33,770 nt of DNA from Ignavibacteria bacterium (GTDB taxonomy: Bacteria; Bacteroidota; Ignavibacteria; Tepidaquicellales; OLB5), in assembly GCA_025451455.1 (NCBI GenBank), contig JANWKI010000046.1, forward strand, positions 1 through 33,770. The letters run 5' to 3'. Below are positions 2,888 to 23,079 of the stretch, piece by piece (positions within the stretch are counted from its first letter, which is position 1; every line of letters begins with the position of its first letter). Position numbers and translations under genes: made by a program. The notes under the pieces were generated by a model. It did no database searches and was not told the DNA's origin. It was given only the letters and a program-made list of their open reading frames with translations.

Positions 2888-2921
2888 ATAGTTTAAGTTA
2901 TTGATATCATCAAAAAGTAAA

Positions 2922-3275
2922 ATGAAGAATTATATAATCCATATAATAAGTCTAAAATGTGAGATATGCTCCCTTATCAAGAAAACACTTAATTCGGATA
3001 AATACACTATTTCATGTATTCTTGCAGAGGATATAGATGAGAATTATATGAATAGTTTAGATAATTCTATAGATTGCCTTATACTTGATAAGGACGTAGA
3101 TGAAGATGTTAGAAAAAGAGTTAAAGAAAAACTCACCGGAACCCCAATCATTAGCCTGCCTTCACTGGGAAATGATATTGAAGAAGGTGCAGGTGTTAAG
3201 TATATGACAGAACCTTTTAAACTAAGCGAACTCAAAAAGACTGTGGATGAGATCACATCAAATCTGCGAAAATGA
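2922..3275 (+). CDS. Small degenerate receiver-like protein
   Basis: The 117-residue product opens the large cytochrome operon and overlaps the next gene by 4 bases (ATGA). Its second half follows the receiver fold pattern: a strand ending in LILDKD, a strand in TPIISLPS, and a last segment YMTEPFKLSELKKTVDEI. The conserved Lys-Pro is replaced by Glu-Pro and the N-terminal acidic pair is missing, so normal phosphorylation is unlikely. A CEIC pair lies near the N-terminus. It has no signal peptide and no heme motif, so it should be cytoplasmic. It may be a regulatory or redox-sensing partner of the neighbouring activator, but the function is not known. A thioredoxin-like fold around CEIC is a less likely alternative. 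Confidence 0.75.
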   Translation: MKNYIIHIISLKCEICSLIKKTLNSDKYTISCILAEDIDENYMNSLDNSIDCLILDKDVDEDVRKRVKEKLTGTPIISLPSLGNDIEEGAGVKYMTEPFKLSELKKTVDEITSNLRK

Positions 3276-5191
3276 AAGGAAAATTTCAAAATATCGGCAT
3301 TATTTTTATTCCGGTTCTCCTTATTACCGGATTATTAATTTTTGCTGAAAGTTATTCCGGGTTAACAAAAAAAGGAGACACGGATATTTGCTTAACTTGC
3401 CATGAAGATAAAGGTCTTACCATGGAAAAAAGCGGGAAGAAAATATCTTTGTTTGTTGATGCTTCCCATTATAAGAATTCCGTTCACCAAATAGCAGAAT
3501 GCGAAGACTGCCATGAGAATTATAATCCTGATGAGATACCCCATACAAAATCTAAACAGGAAGTAAATTGCATCAGCTGCCACAGTGAGGCAAGAAACAT
3601 CGAAACAAATGTTCATGCAAAAGTAAAGTGTTACGATTGCCATACCAAACACGAAATTAAGCCGGCCAGGGAATTTGCAAAAGAACAGGTAAAAGCCTGC
3701 ATAAGCTGTCATAAGAACCAGACATTACAGCATTTTTCGGAAAGTGTACACTCTAAGAACAATGTTAACTGTGAGAAATGTCATGACGGCGGCCATAAAG
3801 TAAAAAAGATAAGTAAACAGGAAGTTTCAGGGCTTTGCGGCAAATGCCACGGAGATCATGAGAAGAATTTCAGGAACAGTATTCATCAAACTGTAATGAA
3901 AGCCGGCAACGTGAATGCCCCGACGTGTACAGACTGCCACGGCTCTCACACAATTATCAGCGGAAAGATCTCGGTTGAATCAAGAGCCTGCCTTGAGTGC
4001 CATCTTGATGAAAAAAAGTTTCCCGGAGAAAACCTGGGTTCTGCAAAATTTGTTGCGCATTACAAAACCAGTATCCATGCTTCTGTCGAAAAAGAAGGGC
4101 TTCTGGAAGCTGCAGGATGTGTTGACTGTCATGGAAATCATATGGTACAGAACCTTGATAACCCAAAAGCTTCAACCAGCCGTGCAAAATTAATAGAAAC
4201 CTGCGGAAAGTGTCATAAAGATGTGGTTGACAGCTTTAAGAAATCAAAGCACGGAATGGAGCTATCAAAAGGGAATGATAAGGCACCTACCTGCACTGAC
4301 TGCCACGGAGAGCATGACATTCAATCAACTCAGCTTTCAAATGATTTTTCGAAAGTAAATCTAACAGAAAAATGCTTAAGCTGTCACAAAGACGGAAAAA
4401 TACCGCACAAGAATTATAAAGGTGAAGAAGAGCTGATTACCGGTTACCAGAAGAGTGTTCATTACCAGGCATTGAAAAACGGAAACTTTAGCGCTCCAAC
4501 ATGTTACCAGTGTCACGGTGCACATGAAATGGAAACACTTGATAACCCTGATTCCAAGCTCAACAAAAATAATATTGCAAAAACATGCGGGCAGTCAAAT
4601 TGTCACGTTAATCAGCTGCGGGACTATTCAGGCAGCATTCATGAAATTGGAGTTTCTAAAGGCAACATAGATGCTCCTACCTGTAATAATTGCCATGGAA
4701 ATCACGGAATACTATCAAAAGATATCGATAACAAAGTCCAGAAGTCAAAAGATCTGATCAATCTTTGTTCTACATGCCATACTTCTGTAGAATTAATTGA
4801 AAGAAATGATCTACCGACCAAAGTAGGGGAGTCATACCAGGAAAGTTTTCATGGTCTTGCAACCAGGGGCGGTTCCAAAGAAGCTGCAAATTGCGAAAGC
4901 TGCCACGGCAATCACAATGTCCGTCCATCAAACGATTCTCTTTCAACTATCAACAGGAAGAATTTGCCTCAAACTTGCGGTAAATGCCATCCCGGTGCGA
5001 CAGAAGTTTTATTTACGAAAAAAATACACATGAATGATGTCGAAAATGATTCACCCGGCGTATTCTGGATAACTAGATTTTACGTAATCATGATAATTGG
5101 TCTTATCGGATTCATGCTATTCCATAACATAATGGACTTCAGAAGAAAAATGAAGAAAAAGAAAACCGGAAACAATGTTAAGAAAATATGA
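3272..5191 (+). CDS. 19-heme membrane-anchored cytochrome c
   Basis: The 639-residue product has an N-terminal membrane or signal segment (residues about 6-26), a periplasmic heme region, and a C-terminal membrane helix with a basic tail. I count 18 CXXCH motifs and one CX4CH (CGQSNCH, residue 439). The core is a repeated two-heme unit: APTCxxCHGxH (or EAA-CxxCHGNH), then about 30 residues, then xxCxxCH. At least six CHGxH blocks are visible, suggesting growth by tandem duplication. Start and stop overlap the neighbours by 4 bases on each side, indicating translational coupling. The cytochrome b protein encoded next is the likely quinol-side partner, as in Cbc-type complexes of metal reducers; that role is inferred. 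Confidence 0.93.
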   Translation: MKGKFQNIGIIFIPVLLITGLLIFAESYSGLTKKGDTDICLTCHEDKGLTMEKSGKKISLFVDASHYKNSVHQIAECEDCHENYNPDEIPHTKSKQEVNCISCHSEARNIETNVHAKVKCYDCHTKHEIKPAREFAKEQVKACISCHKNQTLQHFSESVHSKNNVNCEKCHDGGHKVKKISKQEVSGLCGKCHGDHEKNFRNSIHQTVMKAGNVNAPTCTDCHGSHTIISGKISVESRACLECHLDEKKFPGENLGSAKFVAHYKTSIHASVEKEGLLEAAGCVDCHGNHMVQNLDNPKASTSRAKLIETCGKCHKDVVDSFKKSKHGMELSKGNDKAPTCTDCHGEHDIQSTQLSNDFSKVNLTEKCLSCHKDGKIPHKNYKGEEELITGYQKSVHYQALKNGNFSAPTCYQCHGAHEMETLDNPDSKLNKNNIAKTCGQSNCHVNQLRDYSGSIHEIGVSKGNIDAPTCNNCHGNHGILSKDIDNKVQKSKDLINLCSTCHTSVELIERNDLPTKVGESYQESFHGLATRGGSKEAANCESCHGNHNVRPSNDSLSTINRKNLPQTCGKCHPGATEVLFTKKIHMNDVENDSPGVFWITRFYVIMIIGLIGFMLFHNIMDFRRKMKKKKTGNNVKKI

Positions 5192-5934
5192 GTGAGCCGG
5201 AAAATAATATAAAGCAGGAGCTATTTCTTAGAATGACCAAGAATGAAAGGATACAGCATTTCCTTCTCCTTTCAAGCTTCATGGTACTTATTTTAACAGG
5301 GTTTGGATTGAAATTTCCGGAATCTTTCTGGGTAAAATGGATAGCTTTTATAATTGGTGAAAACGCATTTGAAGCCAGGGGAGTTGTGCATAGAATTGCA
5401 TCATTGGTCATGATTGCAGTATCGCTCTACCACCTTTTTTACATTTTGTTCACTGATCGGGGAAAGCAGCTGGTTAAAGATTTCTTCCCGCGCAAACAGG
5501 ATCTGATAGATTTTAGAAACTCAATGCTATATCTGGTAGGTAAGTCTGATGAAAAACCGAAATTGGGAAGATTCAGTTACATGGAAAAAATGGAATATTG
5601 GGCTGTTGTTTGGGGAACAGTTATTATGGGAGGGACGGGTCTGGTATTATGGTTTGAAAATCTCTTTCTTAAATATGTTTCTACAATGGGAATGGATATT
5701 GCTACTGCTATTCATTACTATGAAGCAATACTGGCTTCGCTTGCAATACTTGTTTGGCATTTCTACTTTATTTTCTTTAACCCTGATGTTTTTCCTATGA
5801 ACAAGGCGTGGTTTAAGGGAACTTTAACAAGAGAAGAGATGGAAAAGGAACATCCTCTGGAATTAGAAATGCTCGAATCCTCAAAAACTGATCCTGAAAT
5901 CAAAGATGAAAAAGCCGATATAAATGAAGCATAA
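5188..5934 (+). CDS. FdnI-like diheme cytochrome b membrane subunit
   Basis: The 248-residue protein has about four membrane helices in the pattern of formate dehydrogenase gamma / thiosulfate reductase cytochrome b subunits. The family signature RIQHFLLLSSFMVLILTGFG carries a helix-1 His. VVHR and LYHLFY follow, then the EYWAVVWG-TGLVLW block, HYYEAI and LVWHFYF. These histidines would bind two b hemes on the quinol pathway. It overlaps the 19-heme cytochrome gene by 4 bases and is followed by a second cytochrome b gene. It probably passes electrons from menaquinol to the periplasmic multiheme partner. The charged C-terminal tail resembles that of the paralogues at 5950 and 7743. Confidence 0.9.
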   Translation: MSEPENNIKQELFLRMTKNERIQHFLLLSSFMVLILTGFGLKFPESFWVKWIAFIIGENAFEARGVVHRIASLVMIAVSLYHLFYILFTDRGKQLVKDFFPRKQDLIDFRNSMLYLVGKSDEKPKLGRFSYMEKMEYWAVVWGTVIMGGTGLVLWFENLFLKYVSTMGMDIATAIHYYEAILASLAILVWHFYFIFFNPDVFPMNKAWFKGTLTREEMEKEHPLELEMLESSKTDPEIKDEKADINEA

Positions 5935-5949
5935 TTACAGGTATTATTT

Positions 5950-6672
5950 ATGAATAAAACAAAATTTCAGAATGGATATTTAATTCGTTTTAATTTAATA
6001 GAAAGAATTCAGCACATAATTCTATTTGTTGCACTCATAATGCTTTTATTAACCGGCTTATCATTATCATATTACGATTCATGGTTTGGAAGATTTATGA
6101 TAGATATTGAAGGCGGACTGGAAAGCAGGGGTAATCTTCATTATTTCTTTGCTTTCGTGCTCATGGCGCTTGGTGTGTTTCATGCCTTTTATGTAACTTT
6201 TTCGGATAAAGGGCAAAGCGAGATCGCTCATATGAAATATACTAAAAAAGATTTCAGGAACATGCTTATTAGTTTCCGGTATAATTTTGGTATGGGAAAA
6301 GCCACACCATATTATGGAAGGTATAATCTCTCTCAGAAATTCCAATATTGGGGAGTCATTTTTGGAAGCGTCATCATGATAACGACCGGGATCATTCTGC
6401 TTTTGAAAGTCTGGAAGATAGCCATGCTGTTCCCAAAGTGGTTATGGGATATTACCAATCTGGTTCACAGTTTTGAGGGAATGATGATTTTCCTTGTACT
6501 GTTTTTATGGCATATTTATGACGTACACTTATCTCCGGGTGTTTTTCCAATGAGCAGAGTATGGCTTACAGGAAAAATCAGCGAAGAAGAATTAAAAAAA
6601 GAACACCCTGAAGAATACGATGAGATCAATAAGGATAAATCTGGAGAATGGAAAATTGATGGGAATATTTAA
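5950..6672 (+). CDS. FdnI-like cytochrome b membrane subunit, second copy
   Basis: The 240-residue protein is a paralogue of the preceding gene. It keeps RIQHIILFVALIMLLLTGLS, LHYFFAF, FHAFYVTF, QYWGVIFG, the VHSFEG histidine and LWHIYDVHLSPGVFPMS. Four membrane helices and two b hemes are expected. It starts 15 bases after its neighbour, and its end overlaps the following 9-heme cytochrome gene by 14 bases. It may pair with that cytochrome rather than with the 19-heme one. Two consecutive cytochrome b genes suggest either a heterodimeric membrane unit or two separate c/b pairs; the sequence does not decide this. Confidence 0.88.
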   Translation: MNKTKFQNGYLIRFNLIERIQHIILFVALIMLLLTGLSLSYYDSWFGRFMIDIEGGLESRGNLHYFFAFVLMALGVFHAFYVTFSDKGQSEIAHMKYTKKDFRNMLISFRYNFGMGKATPYYGRYNLSQKFQYWGVIFGSVIMITTGIILLLKVWKIAMLFPKWLWDITNLVHSFEGMMIFLVLFLWHIYDVHLSPGVFPMSRVWLTGKISEEELKKEHPEEYDEINKDKSGEWKIDGNI

Positions 6673-7741
6673 GGTTAATATACTTTTTTTTATTATCAGC
6701 ATTTTTGTATTCACCAAATTAAACTCACCGGAACTCTATTCCCAGAATCAAAATCAAAAATGCCTTATCTGCCACGGCAAACCTGATTTTAAATTAAAGA
6801 ACGATGATGGTTCTGTAAAACAGCTTTTTGTAAATGACAGCCTTCTTGCAAGATCTCCACACTCAAAAATCAGCTGTTATGACTGTCATAATGATATAGT
6901 TGAAATAACGGCATTTGGTCATAAAAAGAATGTTAATAAAGTTCAATGTACCAGGTGCCATTATGAAAATAATCCCGTTGGAGCACCTGAAACAGAGAAG
7001 TATCTTGAATTTCAGGAGAGTGTGCATCAGCTGGAATTGAATAAAGGGAATCCGAATGCTCCAAATTGCCAGTCATGCCATGGTTCACATGATATTGTAA
7101 AGAGAAAATCATTAAGCTCTTTAGAACTTAAAAAGAAAATTACGCAAATTTGTGCAAAGTGCCACCTTGATATATATGCGGTTTATAAAAACAGTATTCA
7201 CGGCTCCGAGCTTTTTGAAAAAAATAATGCAGATGTTCCTTCCTGTACAGATTGTCATGGAGAGCATACAATAAAAAAACATGATGATCCGCTATCTTCT
7301 GTTTATGAAACAAAAATTTACGGAACGTGCGGTGAGTGCCATGCATCGGAAAAAATATTTGAAAAATACGGGATCAAATCTGATAAGATCAAGACATATG
7401 AATCAAGCTATCACGGAATTGCCGTACAGTTTGGAGAAAAAACAGTTGCTAACTGCGCAAGCTGTCATGGTGTTCACGATATCAGGCCGCAGGATGACCC
7501 GGCATCTCTAATAAACCCGGCTAATATTGTGAAGACCTGCGGAAAGTGTCATCCTGATGCTAATGCAAACTATACAATGGGTAAAATACACCTTAACCCT
7601 CATAATGAAGATTCAGGTTCTATTTATTACATAAGCGGATTTTTCAAATGGCTTACATTAATTACAATTTTCCTGCTGGCAATACATGTAATGCTGGATC
7701 TTTTCAGGAAATTAAAACATAAAAAAGCTTTAACGAAATAA
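6659..7741 (+). CDS. 9-heme membrane-anchored cytochrome c
   Basis: The 360-residue product has a signal or anchor segment (KVNILFFIISIFVF), nine CXXCH motifs (CLICH, CYDCH, CTRCH, CQSCH, CAKCH, CTDCH, CGECH, CASCH, CGKCH) and a C-terminal membrane helix with a basic tail. It looks like a shorter version of the 19-heme protein, with the same NAPNCQSCHGSH and TCGKCHPDA blocks. I chose ATG 6659 because it directly precedes the signal segment and has GGAG upstream; an in-frame ATG at 6620 would add 13 hydrophilic residues. The gene sits between two cytochrome b genes, so a c/b quinol-oxidising complex is the likely setting. Confidence 0.9.
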   Translation: MGIFKVNILFFIISIFVFTKLNSPELYSQNQNQKCLICHGKPDFKLKNDDGSVKQLFVNDSLLARSPHSKISCYDCHNDIVEITAFGHKKNVNKVQCTRCHYENNPVGAPETEKYLEFQESVHQLELNKGNPNAPNCQSCHGSHDIVKRKSLSSLELKKKITQICAKCHLDIYAVYKNSIHGSELFEKNNADVPSCTDCHGEHTIKKHDDPLSSVYETKIYGTCGECHASEKIFEKYGIKSDKIKTYESSYHGIAVQFGEKTVANCASCHGVHDIRPQDDPASLINPANIVKTCGKCHPDANANYTMGKIHLNPHNEDSGSIYYISGFFKWLTLITIFLLAIHVMLDLFRKLKHKKALTK

Positions 7742-7742
7742 A

Positions 7743-8657
7743 ATGGATAAGCAGAACGATATTAACGATAAATTTAACAGAGAAGTTGAGAAAAGACTCA
7801 AGAGTAAGCTTGCAGAATACGAGTCTCGGGTACGGGAAGAAATTCAGCGGGAATTGCAGAAAGAAGCGGAGCTTCTTGCAAGTGATGAACAGAAAAAAGA
7901 GGATGAAAGAATTGAATCAGGAAAAAAGAAAGAAATCTTTTATGAACGGTTTGGAATTAATTTCCGGATTCAGCATATAATTTTGTTTTCCTGTACTATT
8001 ATGTTAATTGTAACAGGGGTCCCTTTAAAATTTCCGAAGAATTCAGTTTCTCAATTTGCCATAGGATTGTTTGGTGGTGCTCCGGGAGCACGTGCAATCC
8101 ATCATTTCTTTGCTCTCGGTCTGATAATTATTGGTATTTACCACCTTTTATATACTTTTTGGTCAAGTCATGGCAGGAAAGACTTTTTTGAATTGCTTCC
8201 CAATCTCAGGGATTTTTCGGATGTTTATAACCAGATCAGATATTTCCTCGGATTTCGTAAAGAGAAAGTTAAATACGGAAGATTCAGTTACATTGAAAAA
8301 TTTGATTACTGGGCTGTATATTGGGGTCTTATCATGATGATCGGTACCGGATTAGTAATGTGGCTCTTCCAGGGAAAGTTTGAACCGATAATCTTCGGTG
8401 AAATAAATTTAGCCTGGGGACCTGAAATTATTACTAATTATGTGCATGCAATTGCAAGAGAAATGCACAGTGATGAAGCATTACTTGCAACATTAGTAAT
8501 TATTGGATGGCACTTTTATAACGTTCATTTCAATCCTCATAAATTTCCAATGAGCAAGGTATGGCTTACCGGGAAAATCACAGAAAAGGAAATGAAGGAT
8601 GAGCACGCACTTGAATATGAGAAAATGATGAAGAAGAAAGAAGATAACGGGGACTGA
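7743..8657 (+). CDS. FdnI-like cytochrome b with N-terminal coiled coil
   Basis: The 304-residue protein is the third cytochrome b of the operon. Residues 1 to about 65 are highly charged and look like a cytoplasmic coiled coil (KRLKSKLAEYESRVREEIQR), absent from the two other copies. The membrane part has FRIQHIILFSCTIMLIVTG, AIHHFFALG, IYHLLYTF, FDYWAVYWG-TGLVMW, a MHSDEALL segment and GWHFYNVHFNPHKFPMS. It starts one base after the stop of the 9-heme gene and precedes the NapC-like giants by two bases. The role is probably quinol oxidation coupled to the neighbouring cytochromes. The coiled coil may dimerise the complex or bind a cytoplasmic partner. Confidence 0.9.
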   Translation: MDKQNDINDKFNREVEKRLKSKLAEYESRVREEIQRELQKEAELLASDEQKKEDERIESGKKKEIFYERFGINFRIQHIILFSCTIMLIVTGVPLKFPKNSVSQFAIGLFGGAPGARAIHHFFALGLIIIGIYHLLYTFWSSHGRKDFFELLPNLRDFSDVYNQIRYFLGFRKEKVKYGRFSYIEKFDYWAVYWGLIMMIGTGLVMWLFQGKFEPIIFGEINLAWGPEIITNYVHAIAREMHSDEALLATLVIIGWHFYNVHFNPHKFPMSKVWLTGKITEKEMKDEHALEYEKMMKKKEDNGD

Positions 8658-8659
8658 AT

Positions 8660-10801
8660 ATGGCTTTATTAAATAAAGTTTTTTCTCCGTTTGGGAAATT
8701 TCTAAGAAGCAAGAATCACCCCTTGATCAAAATTAGTGTAATCTTGTTTTTGGGTTTGTTAACGTTAAACGGAATATATTATTTTGCATCAGCATACAAT
8801 CCCGGGTGTGTGATGTGCCATTATATGAAGCCTTACTATGAACAGTCATCTCATTCGGTTCACAAAGATGTTTCATGTGTAACATGTCATCCGAGCAGAA
8901 GAATTCTGACAGCCCCTTATTTGTTAAGGTACTTAGCGGGATCGTATAATCCGAGGCCAAGAGCAGAAGTAGACGACAATGTTTGCCTCGATTGCCATGA
9001 AGCTCAGGATCTGAAAAAGCAGACTGCATTTGAAATGAATATTTCATTTAATCATTCAGATCATTTGAGCGAACTGAAACGGGGCAAGAAACTGCGTTGT
9101 ACCAGTTGTCATGCCAGGGGAGAGTTTGAAGAGCATTTTGCTATCAATAAAAATGTATGCTTTACCTGTCATTTTAAAGGAGCTAAAACAGGGCATTCGG
9201 CTACCAGCTGCAACGTATGTCATGGATATCCGAAAAAAATTGTGGAGCACGGAGGTTTCAAGTTTAGCCACGAGTCATATCTGAAGATCGGAGTTGATTG
9301 TTCCCAATGCCATCTGGATGTTACTAAAGGAGATGCAGAAGTTGAAAAGAAAAGATGTTTCCAATGCCATGTAGAAAGAACTGAAGAGTTTTCAAATGTT
9401 GAAAAAATTCACAATGTTCATATAAATGAAAGAGGTGTTGATTGTGAAGAATGCCATAACCAGATAGAGCATGGGAAAATGAAAATGATAAATACTCTTG
9501 AAGCTAATTGCGAAAATTGCCATCAGTTAAGGCATACACCTCAGCGCGAAATGTATATTGGCAGTGAAGGGAGAGGTGTAGGAAGTATACCGAGCAGGAT
9601 GTTTGGGGCGCAGGTATCGTGTGAGGGCTGTCATGTAGATCTTAACAATGACGGTAAAAGTGATATGAATGAAAGAAGACAATCTTGCATAAAATGTCAT
9701 TCTGATGGTTATGACAAAATGCTTGATAAATGGGTTGCGTCAATAGATGAGTCGCTGAATGCTGTAGAACCGGGACTGGAATACACAAGGCAATTGTTAA
9801 ATTCAGAAAGATCCCGCGGCAGAAATGTTGAAGGAGTTTTATCTTTTTTTAAAGATGCAGAAGATAATTTTAATCTAGTAAAAGATGGTAAAGGTGTACA
9901 CAACATTGATTACGCTTTAAAACTTCTTATTAATGTTGCATCTAATCTGGAGGGAATTAACGAAAATCTGGGTAATAAGAATTTTAGGGTTAACCGGAGC
10001 AAACTGATGTCCGATGAGAATGAATATTGCAACTTGTGTCATTTTGTTATACAGCCAAAAAATATAACCAAATTTGGTGAGGATCAGTTTCCGCATTCAA
10101 ATCATATGAAGTTTATACAGTGCACTAAATGTCATTCAAGAGATGAACATAAAAAGATAACTGCAACAAAGGAAACATGTGAATCCTGTCACAAGAATTT
10201 CTCAAGTATTCCGGAAAATTTGAAGTACAAATCCATATTGTTTTCACATAATCTGCATACAACAAAGAACAATATCGAATGCAAAACCTGCCATTTAACT
10301 ATCGATTTTGATAAGATTCAAATAAAAGAAAATGTATGCAGCAGCTGTCATCATAAAAAGGAAAATATAAAGAATTGTGCAAAGTGCCATCCTGTTCAGA
10401 ATAATACATACGAAGGCAATATACTAAGTGTGAAATTGGATCCTGACCTGATGAGATCGGGCGGTGTTGCTTGTGCAGACTGTCATATGCCCAATAAAAT
10501 AAATGTTTCAAAACCTGGGAATGATTTCTGTGCAGGCTGTCATGATGCAACTTATACAAGTATGAAAACTGATTGGGTAAATGAGATAAGAACTAAATCA
10601 GGTAAGCTATCAATATTAATTAAGAATACAAAGAATCAGAATTTAACCGAGGAAGAAAAATCAAAATTACAGAAAGCAAAAAGCCTTGTATCATTAATTA
10701 AGGCTGATGGAAGCAATGGTTTGCACAATTATATGGTATTGAGTTCATTATTAGATAATGCTATGAAAGAACTTAATGCAATAACTAAAGAGGAAAATTA
10801 G
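8660..10801 (+). CDS. 20-heme NapC/NrfH-like giant cytochrome c
   Basis: The 713-residue protein has one N-terminal membrane anchor (about 23-46) followed by CVMCHYM and CVTCH. This is the CXXCHxM arrangement of NapC/NrfH-type quinol dehydrogenases. I count 20 CXXCH motifs. Heme-rich segments alternate with two heme-free helical stretches, one at about residues 355-455 and one at the C-terminus. Each follows a CxxCH-x-x-Y block (SDGYDKMLDKW, DATYTSMKTDW) and contains a VHN/LHN motif, so the protein appears internally duplicated. The helical parts recall the C-terminal helices of NrfA-like cytochromes. It may take electrons from quinol or cytochrome b and spread them over a long heme wire. The next gene is a paralogue. 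Confidence 0.92.
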   Translation: MALLNKVFSPFGKFLRSKNHPLIKISVILFLGLLTLNGIYYFASAYNPGCVMCHYMKPYYEQSSHSVHKDVSCVTCHPSRRILTAPYLLRYLAGSYNPRPRAEVDDNVCLDCHEAQDLKKQTAFEMNISFNHSDHLSELKRGKKLRCTSCHARGEFEEHFAINKNVCFTCHFKGAKTGHSATSCNVCHGYPKKIVEHGGFKFSHESYLKIGVDCSQCHLDVTKGDAEVEKKRCFQCHVERTEEFSNVEKIHNVHINERGVDCEECHNQIEHGKMKMINTLEANCENCHQLRHTPQREMYIGSEGRGVGSIPSRMFGAQVSCEGCHVDLNNDGKSDMNERRQSCIKCHSDGYDKMLDKWVASIDESLNAVEPGLEYTRQLLNSERSRGRNVEGVLSFFKDAEDNFNLVKDGKGVHNIDYALKLLINVASNLEGINENLGNKNFRVNRSKLMSDENEYCNLCHFVIQPKNITKFGEDQFPHSNHMKFIQCTKCHSRDEHKKITATKETCESCHKNFSSIPENLKYKSILFSHNLHTTKNNIECKTCHLTIDFDKIQIKENVCSSCHHKKENIKNCAKCHPVQNNTYEGNILSVKLDPDLMRSGGVACADCHMPNKINVSKPGNDFCAGCHDATYTSMKTDWVNEIRTKSGKLSILIKNTKNQNLTEEEKSKLQKAKSLVSLIKADGSNGLHNYMVLSSLLDNAMKELNAITKEEN

Positions 10802-10809
10802 TATATTTG
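10802..10809 (+). promoter_or_regulatory. Possible internal -7 element (TATATTTG)
   Basis: TATATTTG follows the stop of the 20-heme gene directly and lies 54 bases before the ATG at 10864. This 62-base gap is the longest between genes of the operon. It might give the last gene its own promoter. No -33 box is evident. Confidence 0.22.
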
Positions 10810-10863
10810 TAGTTAAGTTTTGTGAAAAACCGATCAATAGAATATTAGACAGATAACAGAATA

Positions 10864-12897
10864 ATGAGCGAAGATAAAAAAAAGGATTTAAAGCCGAAAA
10901 AGTGGTTTAAGAATATAAGAGGATACAAAAGGTTTTTACTCTTTACGGGTATATATATCGGTCTATTTTTAATTCTTTTGGCAGGGTCTGCAGAATACAC
11001 TTCACGTCCCGCTTTTTGCCCCACATGCCATTATATGGAAACATTTTACCAGAGCTGGAGGACTTCTGCCCACAATAAGATTGATTGTGTTGAGTGTCAT
11101 TTCGAACCGGGCATATCAGGAACAGTAAGAGGAAAGCTTAACGGACTAGTCCAGATAGTAAATTACGTATCACTTTCCTATAAGAAGCGCAAACCATGGG
11201 CTGAAATACCCGATAATACATGCGCACGCTCCGGATGTCATGAAAAACAGGCTTTGCAGGATACACTTTATAATTTCAAAGGGGTAATGTTTAGCCATAA
11301 AAACCATCTTTCGGAACTAAAAAGAGGTAAGACACTTAAATGTACCAGCTGCCACTCTCAAATTGTTCAGGGTACACATATCGAAGTGACAGAGCAAACA
11401 TGCTTTGGCTGCCATTTTAAAAAGTCGGATGATCCTGAACATAATACACGAAAGCTGACATTGTGTACGAACTGCCACAAATGGGAGAATAAATCAAAGG
11501 ATGAGATGGCCTCTTACAGGTACAATCACACAATGGTTGTTGAAAACAAGATTGAATGCCAGAGCTGCCATAACAAGGTTGTATCAGGCAACGGTGAAGT
11601 TGGTAAAGAAAGATGTTTCCAGTGCCACTTTGAAAATGACAGACTCGAAAAATACAACAATACAGAATTCCTGCATACTACTCATATTTCAAAACATTCA
11701 ATGAAATGTTCAGTATGCCACTCGCCTATTGAACACAAAATTCAAAAAATAGAGCCAAATTCCCCGGCGGACTGCCAGAGCTGCCATACGGATGCTCATA
11801 CTTACCAGGTTAACCTGTATTCAGGTGAAGGAGGATTTGATGTTGAAAAATCACCAAGTGCGATGTACCTGAACGGGATAAATTGCAAAGGTTGCCATGT
11901 GTTTCATGAAACCGATAAGAGAGATATCAAGACAGAAAAAGCAGGTGCAAAATCATGTGAAAAGTGTCATGGGCCCGGTTATGACAATTTATTGACTCAA
12001 TGGGAAACTGCATCTATAAAAAGAGTAGGTATCATCAATATTTTATATAATAATGTAGAGAAGCAGATTAAGAATTCCGGCAGCTCCAATAAGTCAGAAG
12101 CAGAAACAATTCTTGATCAGGCAAAGCATAATATCAGGATTGTTGAAATTGGTAAAAGTGTCCATAATGTTCAGTTTGCCGATAAGCTATTAGTTGCGGC
12201 ATATACACTGTTGAAGAAAACACTGACCATAATTGGTTCAAAAGTTAATTTGCCGGAATTTTCTTCAAGCTCTGAGTTTATTCCTAATGAATGCTATAAC
12301 TGCCATTCCGGAATCCAGGAAATTAATGTGAAGAAGTTCGATATGAATTTTTCACATAACCAGCATATTGTTAAAGAAAAAATAATATGTGCAAAATGTC
12401 ATTCCAATTCTCAGAGGCACGGAGAACTTATTCAAACCAAAGAAACATGTAACAGCTGTCATCATGCAAAAGGTAAAAATAATGATGCATGCCAGAGCTG
12501 TCATAGTTTTCAGGCGAATGTATACAATGGCAATTTTGCAGGAATGAATCAGCCGGATTATATGAAAGAAGGCGGAGTTGGCTGTATTGACTGCCATATT
12601 TCTACTGATAAAGTATTTTTACCCGATGAAAAGATATGTCTTAAATGCCACGATGATTCATATAAACAAATGGCAACTGAATGGAAAAACGATATCAAGA
12701 AACTGATCAAAGATGCTGAAACTGAATTAAGGAATGTAAAAAATCTTAGTCCGGATGAAGAACAACAGGCGGTAATTTCCGATACTAAAAAGATTTTAAG
12801 CGAACTTTCAACAAGGCCCAGCATATATGTTCATAATTATGATTTGTTAAGTTCTGTACTGACAAAACATATCAAAAAATTGAGAGAAATAAAATAG
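10864..12897 (+). CDS. 18-heme NapC/NrfH-like giant cytochrome c, paralogue of 8660
   Basis: The 677-residue protein shares the whole plan of its upstream neighbour: a membrane anchor (about 20-45), CPTCHYM and CVECH at the NapC-like start, heme runs, and two VHN-containing helical segments. It has 17 CXXCH plus one CX4CH (CARSGCH, residue 120) where the paralogue has an ordinary CLDCH. Two hemes present in the second half of the paralogue (around CESCH/CKTCH) are missing here. The shared FSHKNHLSELKRGKxLKCTSCH block shows a tandem gene duplication followed by divergence. It is the last gene of the operon. The role is inferred to be quinol-linked electron transfer to other periplasmic cytochromes. 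Confidence 0.92.
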   Translation: MSEDKKKDLKPKKWFKNIRGYKRFLLFTGIYIGLFLILLAGSAEYTSRPAFCPTCHYMETFYQSWRTSAHNKIDCVECHFEPGISGTVRGKLNGLVQIVNYVSLSYKKRKPWAEIPDNTCARSGCHEKQALQDTLYNFKGVMFSHKNHLSELKRGKTLKCTSCHSQIVQGTHIEVTEQTCFGCHFKKSDDPEHNTRKLTLCTNCHKWENKSKDEMASYRYNHTMVVENKIECQSCHNKVVSGNGEVGKERCFQCHFENDRLEKYNNTEFLHTTHISKHSMKCSVCHSPIEHKIQKIEPNSPADCQSCHTDAHTYQVNLYSGEGGFDVEKSPSAMYLNGINCKGCHVFHETDKRDIKTEKAGAKSCEKCHGPGYDNLLTQWETASIKRVGIINILYNNVEKQIKNSGSSNKSEAETILDQAKHNIRIVEIGKSVHNVQFADKLLVAAYTLLKKTLTIIGSKVNLPEFSSSSEFIPNECYNCHSGIQEINVKKFDMNFSHNQHIVKEKIICAKCHSNSQRHGELIQTKETCNSCHHAKGKNNDACQSCHSFQANVYNGNFAGMNQPDYMKEGGVGCIDCHISTDKVFLPDEKICLKCHDDSYKQMATEWKNDIKKLIKDAETELRNVKNLSPDEEQQAVISDTKKILSELSTRPSIYVHNYDLLSSVLTKHIKKLREIK

Positions 12898-13237: not shown

Positions 13238-14530
13238 ATGTCCAATTTGAACCAAATGCTGAAAGATAAAAAACATATTATTGCAATATTCTCTGTAATA
13301 ATTATTATAATTTTTATCGGGGTTATTGCCGGTATATTTTTTTCACCGGAGAGTTTTGGTAAATATGGTCATTACAGATGGAATGCTAATAATGAAAATG
13401 CTTCCCTTAAAATGGTGAACCAGAATATTAATACCTGCAAAGAATGTCATGAAAGTATTTACCAGCTTCATGAGAAAGATGCTCATTATAGTGTACCTTG
13501 CGTTGATTGCCACGGCGCAGGAAATTTGCATGTAGAATTTCATAAAAGCGGTGATAGTACCAACATTTCCGCAAAACAGCTTGCAGTGATGCCTAAGGAA
13601 TTTGATTTTGAGGGCTGCCTGTATTGCCACAGAAAATTAAAAGCAAGGCCAGCAGACTTTCCCCAGGTAAACCAGGAAGAACATTATAAATTTCTGCATA
13701 TAACAGATAGCAAGACAAAATGTATTGAATGCCACAACCCGCATGAACCGATATTCTTGTTAACTGATGTAAAACAGTCACGCATTCATCCAATTATTAA
13801 CAGGTGCACAGAGTGTCACTCAAAGAACCCGGAAAAAAGCTTTAAAGAAGTTAGTGACCACCCTGCAATATTTGAATGTAAAGATTGTCATAAAGAAGTT
13901 GTAAATGATTTTAATCAGAAACCTCATCATAAATATATAGACTGCAGAACCTGCCATCTTTATCATAAAGAAAATGAGACGACCGGAAGAATATATAAAA
14001 ATGGAAATGCTAAGTTTTGCCTTCTGTGCCACGAAAAGAAGCCGTTCAAAGATGAAAAATACCCTCCCAAAATTGATTGGCCGTCGCATATTGGCAATTT
14101 AAGCATATTACAAAAAAGTGATGAAAAGATCTGTCTAAGCTGTCACTCAGAGCAGATTCATAAAATGGATTTGAAAGTAAAAGAAAACCCTCATCCTAAG
14201 AACTGGCGCCCTGAACACAAAGATTTTGCAAAAGAAAAGCCGGAAATGTGTAAACGGTGCCATACCACAAACGAATGCGCATCATGTCATTTAAAGAATA
14301 AACCGCAGACGCACAATGACAGCTGGTTAAAGGGGCACTCTATAGCAGGTGAAAAAAATAAGACATCTTGCGATTTTTGTCATAAACAAAATTCATGCAA
14401 TTCATGCCATAAAGTAGTTATGCCCCATCCTAAAGGATTTGATGAACTTCACAAAGAGGTGGTATCGCAAAAAGGCAGAGAAGTTTGCATGAAATGCCAC
14501 AAAGAGAATTTTTGCGGTCAATGTCATTAG
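13238..14530 (+). CDS. 15-heme membrane-anchored cytochrome c (Hmc-like complex)
   Basis: The 430-residue protein has one N-terminal membrane helix (about 13-35) and 15 CXXCH motifs, from CKECH to CGQCH. The coding region ends on the histidine of the last motif, so the fifteenth heme sits at the extreme C-terminus. The genes that follow encode a four-cluster ferredoxin and an NrfD protein. That set (multiheme c, FeS, NrfD) is the core of the Hmc, Nrf, Qrc and Psr families. It most resembles Hmc, whose cytochrome has 16 hemes. It likely exchanges electrons between the quinol pool and periplasmic cytochromes. An in-frame ATG at 13256 is an alternative start if the leader is very short. Confidence 0.92.
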   Translation: MSNLNQMLKDKKHIIAIFSVIIIIIFIGVIAGIFFSPESFGKYGHYRWNANNENASLKMVNQNINTCKECHESIYQLHEKDAHYSVPCVDCHGAGNLHVEFHKSGDSTNISAKQLAVMPKEFDFEGCLYCHRKLKARPADFPQVNQEEHYKFLHITDSKTKCIECHNPHEPIFLLTDVKQSRIHPIINRCTECHSKNPEKSFKEVSDHPAIFECKDCHKEVVNDFNQKPHHKYIDCRTCHLYHKENETTGRIYKNGNAKFCLLCHEKKPFKDEKYPPKIDWPSHIGNLSILQKSDEKICLSCHSEQIHKMDLKVKENPHPKNWRPEHKDFAKEKPEMCKRCHTTNECASCHLKNKPQTHNDSWLKGHSIAGEKNKTSCDFCHKQNSCNSCHKVVMPHPKGFDELHKEVVSQKGREVCMKCHKENFCGQCH

Positions 14531-14575: not shown

Positions 14576-15334
14576 ATGAATAAGATAGAACGGCGTAAGT
14601 TTATTAAATTAGGATTGTACAGCACCGCAGGCGTATTGTGCGGCTCTCTATTTGCCTTTTCTAAGATAGAGCAGGATGCAAATGTTGATAATTACGAAGC
14701 ATTGTTGAAGTTTGACTGGGGATTTCTTGTAGATACAACCAGATGCATAGGTTGCGGCGCCTGTGTAAGGGCATGCAAGATTGAAAATAATGTCCCCGAG
14801 AGTTATTTCCGAACCTGGGTTGAACGCTATGAAATTGATAAGAACGGAAATATAAGGGTAGACTCACCCAAAGGAGCGATCGAGAGCTTTAAGACTGATA
14901 ATTTTCAGAGTGAAGATATTGTGAAGGCTTTTTTTGTCCCTAAATTGTGCAATCACTGTTACGATTCTGCATGCACTCAGGTTTGTCCCGTTGGAGCAAC
15001 ATACGAGACACCTGATAAAGTTGTCCTGATAGATAAAGAAAGATGTGTTGGCTGCGGCTACTGTGTGCAGGCTTGCCCATACGGCTGCAGATATATTGAC
15101 CATGAAAAAGGTGTTGCTGATAAGTGCACTCTGTGTTATCACAGGATACAAAAAGGAGAAGCACCTGCTTGTGTAAACGCCTGTCCAAGAAGCGCAAGAA
15201 TATTCGGCAATCTAAAAGACCCGAAAAGCAAGATAAGAAGAATACTAGACCAGAGAAGATACGGGCAATTGAAACCCGATTTAGGTACCAATCCTAAATG
15301 CTTTTACATTGGGTTAGATAAGGAGGTAGTATGA
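14576..15334 (+). CDS. Tat-exported four-cluster [4Fe-4S] protein (NrfC/HmcB/PsrB-like)
   Basis: The 252-residue protein has a twin-arginine leader (ERRKFIKLG followed by a hydrophobic stretch). Four cysteine groups fit four [4Fe-4S] clusters: CIGCGACVRAC (from residue 57), CNHCYDSACTQVCP, CVGCGYCVQACP and CTLCYHRIQKGEAPACVNACP. This is the electron-transfer subunit of NrfC/PsrB/TtrB type and links the 15-heme cytochrome to the membrane NrfD protein. Its stop overlaps the next start by 4 bases. No molybdopterin catalytic subunit is encoded nearby, so the unit looks like an electron-transfer complex rather than a terminal reductase. Confidence 0.95.
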   Translation: MNKIERRKFIKLGLYSTAGVLCGSLFAFSKIEQDANVDNYEALLKFDWGFLVDTTRCIGCGACVRACKIENNVPESYFRTWVERYEIDKNGNIRVDSPKGAIESFKTDNFQSEDIVKAFFVPKLCNHCYDSACTQVCPVGATYETPDKVVLIDKERCVGCGYCVQACPYGCRYIDHEKGVADKCTLCYHRIQKGEAPACVNACPRSARIFGNLKDPKSKIRRILDQRRYGQLKPDLGTNPKCFYIGLDKEVV

Positions 15335-16515
15335 TCGAGTCGGCTAACGGTTTTGTATTCCCGAATGAAATGCATGTAACGTGGACCGTTATGATTGTTT
15401 TATACCCCTATATCACAGGAATGGTTGCGGGTGCTTTTATTGTTTCATCATTTTATCATGTTTTCGGAATGGAAAAGCTGAAACCGATCGCAAAATTTGC
15501 TCTGGTATCATCTTTTGCTTTTTTGTGTTTTGCAACTGTACCCTTGCTTAACCATCTTGGCAGTCCGCAGCGCGCATTTAACATTATGCTCACACCTAAT
15601 TTTTCTTCTGCAATGAGCGGGTTTGGTTTTGTTTATTCATTTTACATGATAATTGTAATCCTTGAGATATGGTTCTGTTACCGTGAAGAATTTATAGAAA
15701 AATATACAAATTCCGGAAATGTTTTGAAGAAAATTTATTATTTGCTGTTATTGGGTAATACTGTTCAAAACGAAAATACAAGAAAATACGACAGGAAGAT
15801 CGTTGTTTTCCTGGCAGGGTTCGGTATTCCTGTTGCCTGCATACTTCACGGATATGTTGGTTTCCTGTTTGGATCTATTAAGGCGAATCTATGGTGGTCT
15901 ACACCATTAATGTTTATTATATTTATATTTTCAGCAATAGTATCCGGTTTATCCGTGCTGATATTTTTGTATCAATTGATTCATTGGATGAGAAAAAAGG
16001 AAATTGATCAGCGCTGTTATGAACTTATGGCAAAATGGCTTTGGGGTTTTATGATAATTGCCGTAATTCTGGAACTTATGGAAATACTTTCTATTTCCTA
16101 CGAAAATACAGAAAGATGGGCAGTCTTGAAACAGCTTATCAACGGCAAATTATGGATATCATATGTTGTAATGCAGATCGGATTGTTTTCTATAGTACCG
16201 TTTCTTATGCTTACGTTTACTTCATTATTAAAGCTTAACAACCGAATTAAGAACATCCTTATATTTTGTTCATCAGGGATGTTATTGCTCCAGGTATTAT
16301 TTATGCGCTGGAACGTAGTAATTGGCGGCCAGCTGGTTTCAAAGAGCATGCGCGGATTCACAGAATATTTTCCCGGTTATTTTGATAAAGAAGGAATAAT
16401 AGTATCGGTTATCATAATTTTAGTCCCATTCCTGATGCTTAGGCTTTTTGACAGTATTTTCCCGTTTTTTCATAAGAAAAAGGTGCGTAGAATATTCTTT
16501 AGTGAATATGAGTAA
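15331..16515 (+). CDS. NrfD/PsrC-like integral membrane quinone-interacting subunit
   Basis: The 394-residue protein is highly hydrophobic, with about 8-10 membrane helices. The first conserved part (TGMVAGAFIVSSFYHVFG) and the PLLNHLGSPQRAFN loop are typical of the NrfD/PsrC/HmcC family, which binds quinone in the membrane and passes electrons to a periplasmic FeS partner. The gene overlaps its FeS neighbour by 4 bases and has the clear ribosome site AAGGAGG. It ends the sigma-54-type transcription unit that begins at 13238. A palindrome (TAATTACGTAATTA, 16513-16526) overlaps its stop codon. The direction of electron flow cannot be read from the sequence. Confidence 0.92.
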   Translation: MIESANGFVFPNEMHVTWTVMIVLYPYITGMVAGAFIVSSFYHVFGMEKLKPIAKFALVSSFAFLCFATVPLLNHLGSPQRAFNIMLTPNFSSAMSGFGFVYSFYMIIVILEIWFCYREEFIEKYTNSGNVLKKIYYLLLLGNTVQNENTRKYDRKIVVFLAGFGIPVACILHGYVGFLFGSIKANLWWSTPLMFIIFIFSAIVSGLSVLIFLYQLIHWMRKKEIDQRCYELMAKWLWGFMIIAVILELMEILSISYENTERWAVLKQLINGKLWISYVVMQIGLFSIVPFLMLTFTSLLKLNNRIKNILIFCSSGMLLLQVLFMRWNVVIGGQLVSKSMRGFTEYFPGYFDKEGIIVSVIIILVPFLMLRLFDSIFPFFHKKKVRRIFFSEYE

Positions 16516-16754: not shown

Positions 16755-17204
16755 ATGAACGAAATACCGGGGTACACAGAAAAAAGTTCAAGAAGAGATT
16801 TTTTGAATTACGTATTATCCATAGGTTTTTTTGGATGGATAGTTGCGATTCTGTATCCATTGTATTCATACCTGGTTCCTCCAAAATCGCCTGATGTAGA
16901 TGTTTCCAATATCAGTATCGGTAAAGCCAGCGAGATAGAGAACAATTCAAGCAAGATGTTCAAGATGGGAAACAAGCCGGGAATACTTATTAAGACAAAA
17001 GAAGGCGAGTTGAGAGCTTTCAGCGCCACCTGCACTCATCTTGACTGCACGGTACAGTTTAATAAAGAAGAGAATTTGATCTGGTGTGCATGCCATAACG
17101 GTAAGTATGACCTTAACGGTAAAAACATCAGCGGACCGCCGCCAAGTCCTCTGACTCCATTTAATATTAATGTTCAAAAAGATGAGATTTATATTCTAAA
17201 ATAA
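16755..17204 (+). CDS. Rieske [2Fe-2S] protein of a bc-type complex
   Basis: The 149-residue protein starts with a Tat-like SRRDFL motif and one membrane helix (about 18-40). The cluster-binding boxes are CTHLDC (C93, H95, C98) and CACH (C111, C113, H114). C93, H95, C111 and H114 should bind the cluster, and C98-C113 should form the stabilising disulfide. SGPPPSPL is the usual proline loop. At 149 residues it is near the short end for the family. It accepts electrons from quinol at the site formed with the cytochrome b encoded next. A new transcription unit probably begins here, since a 239-base gap precedes it; I see no confident promoter. Confidence 0.95.
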
Positions 17205-17215
17205 TTTACTTTCTG

Positions 17216-18304
17216 TTGGGTAAAAACTCTGTAAATAGAAAAGTGTATGGCTGGTTAGACGAACGGTTCAAACTGGACGATCTGATAAATTTCATGAAGA
17301 AAAAGGAAGTACCTTTATACAGGGGGACTATATGGTATTATTTTGGAGGTATAACGTTATTGCTGTTTATAATACAAGTTGTAACCGGCATGCTTTTATT
17401 GTTGTATTACAAAGGAAGTTCTGAATTAGCTTTTGAAAGTGTACGGTTTATTTCTGCAAAAGTTAAATTCGGATGGTTGATAAGATCTATTCATTCCTGG
17501 TCTGCAAATTTGATGGTTCTTTCAGCATTTATTCATATGTTCAGTGTATTTTTTACTAAGGCATATAAAAAGCCAAGAGAGCTCACATGGTATTCCGGAT
17601 TCTTACTGCTGGTATTGGCAATGGGTTTTGGTTTTACAGGCTATTTGCTGCCATGGAATGAACTTTCATTATTTGCTACAAAGGTCGGTACGGATATTCC
17701 GAAAACAATTCCTTTGGTAGGCGGTTTCATTATGAATCTGTTGAGAGGCGGTGAAGAAGTATCAGGCTCAACCCTATCAAGGTTTTTTGGATTTCACGTC
17801 GCATTATTACCGGGAATCTTTACCGTAATCTTAGCGCTGCACTTAGTTTTGATCCAAAGGCAGGGAATGGCAGCCCCTGAGAACTGGGACGAATTGCCCG
17901 AATCCAGAAAGAAAAAAATCCCTTTTTTCCCGAATTTTCTTCTGAGGGATTTATTGATATGGCTGATTATTATAAACGTTTTGTCTGTACTTGCAGTATT
18001 TTTCCCATGGGATCTCGGAACTAAAGCAGATGAATTAGCTCCCGCTCCTGCGGGGATCAAACCGGAATGGTATTTTCTATTCATGTTCCAGACGCTGAAG
18101 ATAATACCTGCAAAATTGTTTGTTATCGATGGTGAAGTATTTGGTGTTATGTTGTTTTCAATTGCGGGATTGTTGTGGTTTTTAGTTCCATTAATGGACA
18201 GGAAAACAAAATCAGGAGAAAAAAGCTATTGGCTCATTTATTCGGGGATATTTGTTATAATTTATATTATAGTATTTACTATAGTTGGATTTATTGCTAA
18301 GTAA
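17216..18304 (+). CDS. Cytochrome b, b6-type fused to subunit IV-like region
   Basis: The 362-residue protein has the four-helix cytochrome b core with heme ligands H93/H107 and H194/H209. The spacing is 13 residues in helix B and 14 in helix D, the b6-type pattern rather than the mitochondrial one. PEWYFLF marks the quinol site in the C-terminal part, which resembles subunit IV and is fused to the core. The cysteine that binds heme cn in plastid b6 (in YCLGG) is tyrosine here (YYFGG, Y42), so that extra heme is probably not covalently bound. The start is a TTG 12 bases after the Rieske gene; GTG 17243 is an alternative. It forms the core of a bc complex with the 11-heme protein. Confidence 0.94.
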
Positions 18305-18314
18305 TGGGAATTAA

Positions 18315-19760
18315 ATGACAAATACAGTAAAATATAATAAGATATTGATTCTTTTGATCATGCTGATTCTGAATCCAGCCGTTATATTGTCACAGGAAAT
18401 AGAAAGTAAGGATGCTTGTTTTAATTGCCATGCAATAACAGAAGGCAGGCTAAAGACTCCAGCAGATATGTTTAAGTCAGATATTCATTTCCGGAAGGGT
18501 ATTTCTTGTGCCGCTTGCCACGGAGGAGATTCAAAGGAAGAAGACCAGGATAAGTCAATGAGTAAATCTGCTGGATTTATCGGTATCCCGCAGGGATTAC
18601 AGGTTTCGAAAATCTGTGCAAAGTGCCACAGTAAAGAATTTGAGACCTTAAGCAAAAGTGTGCATGGACAGTCATCTACAGGAACCGGACTTGTCATAAA
18701 CAGTTGTATCACCTGCCATGGCATTCATAACATTATTCCCGTAAAAAGCCAGGGTTCAAAAGTAAACGGAGCAAATATTGTAAGCACCTGTGCTAACTGC
18801 CATAACAATGCGTCATTAATGAAGAAGTATAATCCGGGACTAAAAGTTGACCAGCTTGAGAAATATAAGACATCTGTACACGGGCAAAAAGTTTTCAGCG
18901 GAGACAGCAAAGCTGCAAACTGTGCATCTTGTCACGGCAACCATGATATCAAAAAGGTAAATGACCCGAACGCCAGGGTATATATAACAAACATCCCTTC
19001 AACATGTAATAAATGCCACGGTGATGCCAATTATATGAGGGAATATAAAATTCCTACAGATCAATATGAAAAATTCAGAAAAAGCGTTCATGGTATAGCT
19101 TTGCTTGAAAAGGGAGATTTGAATGCGCCATCATGCAATAAATGCCATGGTGACCACGGCGCATCTCCCCCTGAAGTTGAATCAATATCAAAAGTATGCG
19201 GAACTTGCCATGTGTTAAATTCACAGATGTTTCAGGAAAGTCCGCACAAGCCTGCCTTTGACAAGTCAAGAACACATGAATGCAGTGCGTGCCATAGTAA
19301 CCATGAAATAAACAAGCCGACCGATGAAATGCTTGGTACCGGTGAAAAATCAGTCTGTATCAAATGTCATAAAGATAATGATAAAGGCTTCCTTGCAGCC
19401 GGAATGATGAAGAATATGATAGACAGCCTGTTAAAAGATGTTGAGCTTGCTAATTATTTTATTAATGCAGCTGAACAAAAGGGTATGGATGTAAGCGATT
19501 CTAAGTTTGAAGCCAATGATATCAAGAAAGTACTGATAACCTCAAGAACAAGCACTCATTATGGTGATATTGAAAAATATCTGAATACAATAAACGAAGG
19601 ATTCAAAATCACAAACAAGGCTAAGATAGATGGAGAGGAAGCTGTTAATGAGTATTATTTCAGGAGGCTGGGATTGGGTGTTTCAACAATTTTTATTACG
19701 ATAATTTGTATTACTTTATATTTCAAATTGAAAAAAATTGAGAAAAAACAAAAAACCTAG
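18315..19760 (+). CDS. 11-heme cytochrome c, probable electron acceptor of the bc complex
   Basis: The 481-residue protein has a signal peptide (about 1-27), 11 CXXCH motifs (CFNCH to CIKCH), then a heme-free helical stretch and a C-terminal membrane helix with a lysine-rich tail. The GDLNAPSCNKCHGDHG and SCITCHGIHNI units are the repeats seen in the 19-heme and 9-heme proteins. It starts 10 bases after cytochrome b and would take the place of cytochrome c1 or f. Multiheme cytochromes in this position are known in bc complexes of some anaerobes. The complex would thus send quinol electrons straight into the multiheme network. Confidence 0.93.
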   Translation: MTNTVKYNKILILLIMLILNPAVILSQEIESKDACFNCHAITEGRLKTPADMFKSDIHFRKGISCAACHGGDSKEEDQDKSMSKSAGFIGIPQGLQVSKICAKCHSKEFETLSKSVHGQSSTGTGLVINSCITCHGIHNIIPVKSQGSKVNGANIVSTCANCHNNASLMKKYNPGLKVDQLEKYKTSVHGQKVFSGDSKAANCASCHGNHDIKKVNDPNARVYITNIPSTCNKCHGDANYMREYKIPTDQYEKFRKSVHGIALLEKGDLNAPSCNKCHGDHGASPPEVESISKVCGTCHVLNSQMFQESPHKPAFDKSRTHECSACHSNHEINKPTDEMLGTGEKSVCIKCHKDNDKGFLAAGMMKNMIDSLLKDVELANYFINAAEQKGMDVSDSKFEANDIKKVLITSRTSTHYGDIEKYLNTINEGFKITNKAKIDGEEAVNEYYFRRLGLGVSTIFITIICITLYFKLKKIEKKQKT

Positions 19761-23057: not shown

Positions 23058-23079
23058 TATCAACTAAATACATTTTATA

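Follow-up and report, generated by a model that had tools for sequence, protein, structure and literature searches.

Adjacent giant multiheme cytochromes of an Ignavibacteria bacterium with an NrfH-like anchor and two NrfA/OcwA-type units as candidate quinol dehydrogenases

The stretch of DNA analysed here, referred to as the window, comprises 33,770 nt of contig JANWKI010000046.1 from the metagenome-assembled genome GCA_025451455.1 of an Ignavibacteria bacterium (completeness 64%, contamination 0.14%). Two adjacent genes on its forward strand encode giant cytochromes, termed A and B, which can be aligned over their whole length (33% identity, E-value 7e-106). Their anatomy was read from alignments of 16-26 relatives, and the following features were located:

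8660-10801, + strand: giant cytochrome A (A-type), 713 amino acids (aa), 20 CxxCH motifs; plan of anchor, NrfH-like start, linker hemes and two NrfA/OcwA-like units
8720-8794, + strand: N-terminal membrane anchor of A, residues 21-45 (hydropathy; helix 21-44 in the model)
8807-8827, + strand: CVMCHYM of A, the CxxCHxM quinol-heme motif of NapC/NrfH
9341-10009, + strand: repeat unit U2 of A, residues 228-450, five hemes and a helical segment (hhalign of U2 against U3)
9701-10027, + strand: first heme-free helical segment of A, GVHN, residues 348-456 (helices 351-385, 391-410 and 416-436; predicted local distance difference test, pLDDT, about 77-92)
10013-10798, + strand: repeat unit U3 of A, residues 452-713, eight hemes (two of them inserted) and a helical segment
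10178-10336, + strand: two-heme insertion of A (C507, C541), missing from most relatives in the alignments
10544-10798, + strand: second heme-free helical segment of A, GLHN, residues 629-713 (helices 631-658, 664-682 and 691-710)
10864-12897, + strand: giant cytochrome B (B-type), 677 aa, 17 CxxCH motifs and one CX4CH motif
10924-10995, + strand: N-terminal membrane anchor of B, residues 21-44 (hydropathy; helix 21-46 in the model)
11017-11037, + strand: CPTCHYM motif of B, Cys/His and Met58 invariant
11221-11241, + strand: third heme of B, CX4CH motif CARSGCH, residues 120-126 (conserved family-wide)
11599-12249, + strand: repeat unit U2 of B, residues 246-462, five hemes and a helical segment (hhalign of U2 against U3)
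11971-12249, + strand: first heme-free helical segment of B, SVHN, residues 370-462 (helices 373-403, 410-430 and 436-457; pLDDT about 83-95)
12271-12894, + strand: repeat unit U3 of B, residues 470-677, six hemes and a helical segment (matched by OcwA residues 268-497)
12652-12894, + strand: second heme-free helical segment of B, YVHN, residues 597-677 (helices 599-625, 632-649 and 659-676)

In both proteins CxxCHYM (residue 50 or 52) comes after a single strong N-terminal hydrophobic segment. The first four hemes of B (proximal His56, 79, 126 and 164) are the counterpart of the NrfH/NapC head and are followed by a linker of three hemes (proximal His 184, 205 and 236). Unit U2 of B holds five hemes (proximal His 255, 286, 308, 345 and 369), after which the helical segment, preceded by CEKCHGPGY, ends in VHN (His434); U3 holds six hemes (proximal His 481, 513, 533, 547, 578 and 596), and its helical segment, preceded by CLKCHDDSY, ends in VHN (His657). 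A follows the layout of B with two extra hemes in U3 (motifs at C507 and C541), and its helical segments stand after CIKCHSDGY, with VHN at His414, and after CAGCHDATY, with LHN at His689. The HN residues of both segments are invariant in the A-family and B-family alignments. An initial annotation, made from the sequence of the window, had described two open reading frames of 713 and 677 aa with 20 and 18 hemes, each with two heme-free helical segments carrying V/L-HN after a CxxCH-x-x-Y block; both observations were borne out, the 18 hemes of B being the sum of 17 CxxCH and one CX4CH. The number of 20 hemes is special to the A of the window. The A subfamily has 18 core heme sites in common, composed of 17 CxxCH/CX4CH motifs and the H461 site, which is a CxxCH in A and a conserved His in its relatives, and the CxxCH count in other A-type and Kryptonia copies is 16-18.

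The initial annotation had also suggested a doubled unit, and this was recovered at the level of family profiles. In A the two helical segments were aligned with a score of 66, compared to a mean of 31 (standard deviation 6) for shuffled sequences, and 0 of 1000 shuffles reached a score as high. The family profiles of the helical segments matched each other with E-values of 8e-8 in the B family, without any heme motif, and 8.4e-12 in the A family. The unmasked family profiles of U2 and U3 matched in register at 5e-27 (B) and 9e-30 (A). Because heme motifs alone align unrelated multiheme proteins, which in a control with proteins from the same cluster reached up to 3e-14, all heme motifs were masked, and U2 and U3 were matched at 1.8e-12 over 173 columns in the B family and at 8.8e-16 over 181 columns in the A family. 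This masked comparison ruled out that the halves are alike merely through repeated CxxCH. On the evidence of the profiles the duplication is genuine, and it is older than the split into A and B subfamilies, since both carry it. Once the heme motifs were masked, the N-terminal heme block gave no support for a third repeat, no match between this block and the units being obtained (E-value 0.002-0.17).

The NapC/NrfH-like start, with its anchor and CxxCHYM, was supported by profile searches. B matched Pfam Cytochrom_NNT above the cut-off (38.5 versus 24.1 bits), the head matched the NrfH structure 2j7a at 9e-11 with the family profile, and the NCBIfam NrfH model gave 52.6 and 56.9 bits for the two proteins, below its equivalog cut-off of 134.2. 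For the units, the search with the family profile (hmmsearch) aligned residues 463-674 of B to residues 268-497 of OcwA (6i5b) with an E-value of 2e-17, i.e., to the C-terminal part of OcwA including its three-helix bundle. Weaker sequence matches than that of OcwA were obtained for OmhA (6qvm; 5e-9) and for MccA (4rkm), the latter over the helical segment of U2 (residues 377-461 of B). Hemes 5-9 of OcwA are NrfA-like, and the three-helix bundle is common to OcwA, NrfA, HAO and MccA (PMC6703420).

AlphaFold models were of moderate quality for B (pLDDT 69) and poor overall for A (pLDDT 60, predicted template modelling score 0.36), with the helical segments well predicted in both. Foldseek searches with both models placed OcwA, OmhA and MccA on top and, among cytochromes, NrfA-type nitrite reductases next; for the model of A the probability was near 1 but the E-value weak. 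The fold match to OcwA, MccA, OmhA and NrfA is therefore supporting, not decisive, and together with the sequence matches to OcwA, OmhA and MccA it upholds the earlier comparison of the helical parts with NrfA-type C-terminal helices. Pfam Cytochrom_C552 and the NCBIfam NrfA model had no match to A or B. As had been noted, no named family covers these proteins: Pfam and NCBIfam returned short c7/c3/NNT pieces or matches below the cut-off, an assignment of the full-length architecture to one family was absent from the Pfam, NCBIfam and PDB searches, and no description for Ignavibacteria or Kryptonia was found in the open-licence literature. As judged from these alignments, the architecture joins two NrfA/OcwA-type units to an NrfH-like anchor.

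The genes that surround A and B encode further multiheme cytochromes, several membrane proteins and a putative outlet:

3272-5191, + strand: M18, cytochrome with 18 CxxCH and hydrophobic N- and C-terminal segments, conserved partner
5188-5934, + strand: cb1, b561/FdnI-type membrane cytochrome b (Pfam PF01292; synteny)
5950-6672, + strand: cb2, second b561-type subunit, in the A module
6620-7741, + strand: M9, nonaheme cytochrome with hydrophobic C-terminal segment, in the A module
7743-8657, + strand: cb3, third b561-type subunit, directly upstream of A in relatives
13238-14530, + strand: M15, anchored 15-heme cytochrome, partner of the iron-sulfur (FeS)/NrfD proteins
14576-15334, + strand: NrfC-like 4Fe-4S protein
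15331-16515, + strand: NrfD-like, predicted quinol-oxidising membrane subunit (Pfam NrfD, 1.5e-31)
16755-18304, + strand: Rieske protein and cytochrome b
18315-19760, + strand: M11, 11-heme cytochrome with hydrophobic C-terminal segment, linked to Rieske/cytochrome b
19830-20414, + strand: small cytochrome c554-family protein
20454-21782, + strand: putative outer-membrane porin (sequence character and position)
21795-23937, + strand: cytochromes with 14 hemes and 7 heme motifs of the putative porin-cytochrome conduit, the second with a lipobox

M11 ends in a helical stretch and has a weak Cytochrom_C552 match (24.3 bits; cut-off 24.1); it is perhaps another offshoot of the NrfA superfamily that replaces cytochrome c1. 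The first heme motif of the c554-family protein is a CX3CH (CAGTCH), and in some relatives this protein occurs as a tandem pair. The putative porin is 44-77% conserved across the Ignavibacteria clusters. A small protein with an early CxxC (2901-3275), for which no convincing family was found, lies upstream of M18 in most of these clusters, and a CcmF-type cytochrome c maturation protein (24245-26650, - strand) lies near the cluster in many relatives.

A and B had been described as a tandem pair, which holds for the adjacency of the genes and not for their origin. A recent local duplication was rejected, since the proteins are only 33% identical, all 34 B rows fall into a clade without A, and A falls together with copies of a different phylum. 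Instead, A and B are two deep subfamilies that recur in several phyla with different gene partners, as indicated by a B clade of 34 rows and an A-type clade of 10 rows, both with support of 100/99. Within the order to which the window belongs B is the usual copy: a family member was found in 30 of the 44 genomes and an A-type copy in the genome of the window only. A groups with sequences of the GTDB phylum that includes Candidatus Fischerbacteria; of the 149 genomes of this phylum, 23 encode a family member. B-type members were also found in Rhodothermia and Calditrichota. The A module of the window may have arrived by transfer or may have been retained.

The conserved B cluster of Ignavibacteria consists of an NtrC-type regulator, the small CxxC protein, M18, cb1, in some cases M15-FeS-NrfD, and B, followed by c554, in some cases Rieske-cytochrome b-M11, the putative porin and the 14-heme and lipobox-bearing cytochromes. 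In most Ignavibacteria cb1 precedes B, and in Ignavibacteria and Kryptonia alike b-type cytochromes and the putative porin-cytochrome conduit are clustered with the family. Where the sequence upstream of an A-type gene is long enough, it shows the order cb2-M9-cb3-A, often as M18-cb1-cb2-M9-cb3-A, and cb3-A is visible at L130, which lies at a contig edge. The immediate upstream neighbour of A is cb3, both in the window and in all A-type relatives, and cb3 also precedes the Kryptonia copies. The extended arrangement of the window is complete at two Kryptonia loci (L068, L079), which have a copy in the A position beside B, and a third (L066) shows the cb3-A'-B end. These A' copies are A-like in gene order and are placed between the A and B clades in the tree.

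In the genome of the window another contig (C135; L006:1-9175) carries a second cluster, M18-cb1-M15-FeS-NrfD-B-c554-porin, with another B-type copy; its proteins are 64-84% identical to those of the window, and the A module and Rieske/cytochrome b are missing from the assembled part. Some B relatives (L117, L119, L121-L123) possess only one helical region with HN, and their C-terminus is rich in hemes; two of these (L119 and L123) reach 950-1261 aa with 27 CxxCH and extra N-terminal membrane segments. The single-bundle relatives possibly lost or never gained the second bundle.

On balance A and B are probably multiheme quinol dehydrogenases on a membrane anchor, of a covalent NrfH-(NrfA)2-like build, which would conduct electrons to a putative porin-cytochrome conduit for extracellular electron transfer. 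The NrfH-type head would take electrons from menaquinol at heme 1 (CxxCHxM), and about three linker hemes and the two tandem NrfA/OcwA-type units would carry them across the periplasm to the putative conduit of the same cluster, which would pass them out of the cell. From the gene context we infer that quinol oxidation feeds this outer-membrane conduit. In Desulfovibrio vulgaris one NrfH serves one NrfA dimer in an overall alpha4-beta2 complex, and the dimer contact is made of three long helices per monomer (PMC8840924); the two three-helix bundles of A and B probably pack in the manner of the NrfA-dimer bundles, which would give an internal pseudo-dimer. A would be partnered by its own b-type module cb2-M9-cb3, often M18-cb1-cb2-M9-cb3, and B by M18-cb1 and the c554-type carrier. 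Several quinol-oxidising routes seem to lead into one outlet in this organism, since the cluster encodes b561-type, NrfCD-like and Rieske/cytochrome b proteins. More tentatively, the giant cytochromes might constitute an additional class of quinol dehydrogenase that serves extracellular electron transfer at the inner membrane; an NrfH head would here be fused to two NrfA-type units that are catalytically silent, the single chain mimicking NrfH:NrfA2 as a continuous wire of 18-20 hemes, with two deep subfamilies using distinct cytochrome b modules.

Several points weigh against this assignment. The adjacent b561, NrfD and Rieske/cytochrome b proteins could each be real quinol oxidases, and A is without a Pfam NNT match, hence its quinol site is less certain. 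The AlphaFold models of A and B are moderate to poor and heme-free, and Foldseek gave 0 matches at E < 0.001 with either of them. The putative porin had no profile match in Pfam or NCBIfam, and many A-type loci outside the window are without a nearby porin.

The main rival explanation, which we regard as unlikely, is that the giants do not oxidise quinol and that the b561-type proteins cb1 and cb3 do so, passing electrons on via M18 or M9. The NrfH-like start would then be an anchor only, and each module would be a split-gene analogue of CbcL or CbcBA. This explanation agrees with the position of cb3, which lies directly ahead of the A of the window, of all A-type relatives and of the Kryptonia copies, with that of cb1 ahead of B in most Ignavibacteria, and with the composition of CbcL, in which a di-heme b-type membrane domain is combined with nine c hemes (PMC9129911). 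For a bare anchor, however, the CxxCHxM and the NrfH-like heme spacing that are found family-wide with the membrane segment would be needless; anchor and CxxCHxM are present in 37 of the 38 relatives scanned, A and B counted among them.

Quinol dehydrogenases with wire-like units, as favoured here, must also be weighed against membrane-attached reductases that have kept a catalytic heme in one unit and whose substrate would be nitrite, hydroxylamine, sulfite or some other compound. The homology of the units to OcwA, MccA and NrfA, which reduce such substrates (PMC6703420), would fit such an enzyme. CxxCK, which with some alternatives marks the open-site catalytic heme of NrfA, was found in 0 of the 38 relatives. 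In the B family the 18 proximal His are invariant or near-invariant, and 15 non-motif His together with Met58, Met334, Met567 and Lys91 are at least 92% conserved, which by this count provides about one candidate distal ligand for each of the 18 hemes and leaves little space for open sites such as the two five-coordinate active-site hemes of OcwA-type terminal reductases. Met334 in U2 and Met567 in U3 stand at equivalent places, where the aligned OcwA has Met as well. Nearly all hemes thus have a conserved candidate ligand, and six-coordination is possible for most or all of them, as would be typical of a wire. For the five hemes of U2 in B there are six candidate ligands, and the invariant His312 of this unit is aligned to a His-His pair of OcwA, inferred to be the distal active-site pair; U2 may thus hold a residual catalytic site, while U3 has an additional heme motif at the equivalent position. 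With CxxCK missing and an invariant candidate distal ligand for nearly every heme, the units are likelier a wire than a nitrite reductase or other reductase, and we consider the enzymatic explanation quite improbable. Very improbable in our estimation is an inward chain that reduces quinone with electrons taken up, e.g., by Fe(II) oxidation or interspecies transfer, for which it speaks that homologues of CymA and CbcL/MtoC are present in Fe(III) reducers as well as in Fe(II) oxidisers (PMC6295460), although the direction of flow is not decidable from sequence.

Ignavibacteria are rich in multiheme cytochromes and occur on electrodes. In the literature found, no inner-membrane entry point for extracellular respiration had been assigned in them, CbcL and ImcH homologues aside. 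A survey from 2018 listed CymA, CbcL and ImcH as the only such entry points (PMC6295460), to which CbcBA was added later (PMC9129911). The giant cytochrome family is a conserved candidate for this step in Ignavibacteria and Kryptonia and occurs in other phyla too. If the proposed function is true, a fold of the NrfA type would have been converted from an enzyme to a wire through internal duplication.

Among known systems NrfHA is similar in its anchored NrfH-type head with CxxCHxM, in NrfA-type units that end in three long helices and in the head to unit ratio of 1:2, for which D. vulgaris uses separate chains (PMC8840924); A and B differ from it in being one polypeptide each, with 18-20 hemes instead of 14, without CxxCK and with extra linker hemes. 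OcwA of Thermincola potens and OmhA of Carboxydothermus ferrireducens have the same pentaheme block and HN-bearing three-helix bundle, but they are cell-surface proteins with one bundle, whereas A and B have two units on an anchor of the inner-membrane type. The octaheme sulfite reductase MccA has the helical segment in common with B and is a catalytic, single unit with no fused anchor. The quinol dehydrogenases CymA, NapC and NirT share the anchor and the first hemes; members of the NapC/NirT/NrfH class have four or five hemes in total and no NrfA-like units, compared to 20 and 18 hemes in A and B. CbcL and CbcBA of Geobacter likewise combine a b-type membrane cytochrome with a multiheme c-type part in respiration of extracellular acceptors, but in CbcL, as in MtrH/MtoC, the b and c parts form one chain, whereas here they are separate open reading frames next to a NapC-type giant. 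ImcH of Geobacter is also a NapC-like inner-membrane multiheme protein with a proposed role in quinol oxidation for extracellular respiration; its family has three membrane helices and 6-10 hemes, with NrfA-like units not described, in contrast to one helix and 18-20 hemes in A and B. The presence of several quinol-oxidising routes in one organism is comparable to Geobacter, where ImcH, CbcL and CbcBA are used at different potentials (PMC9129911). Each part of A and B is thus of a known kind, and what appears to be new, as predicted from sequence, is that one chain combines an NrfH-type head with two NrfA/OcwA-type units, a build that occurs in two subfamilies whose b-type partners are fixed.

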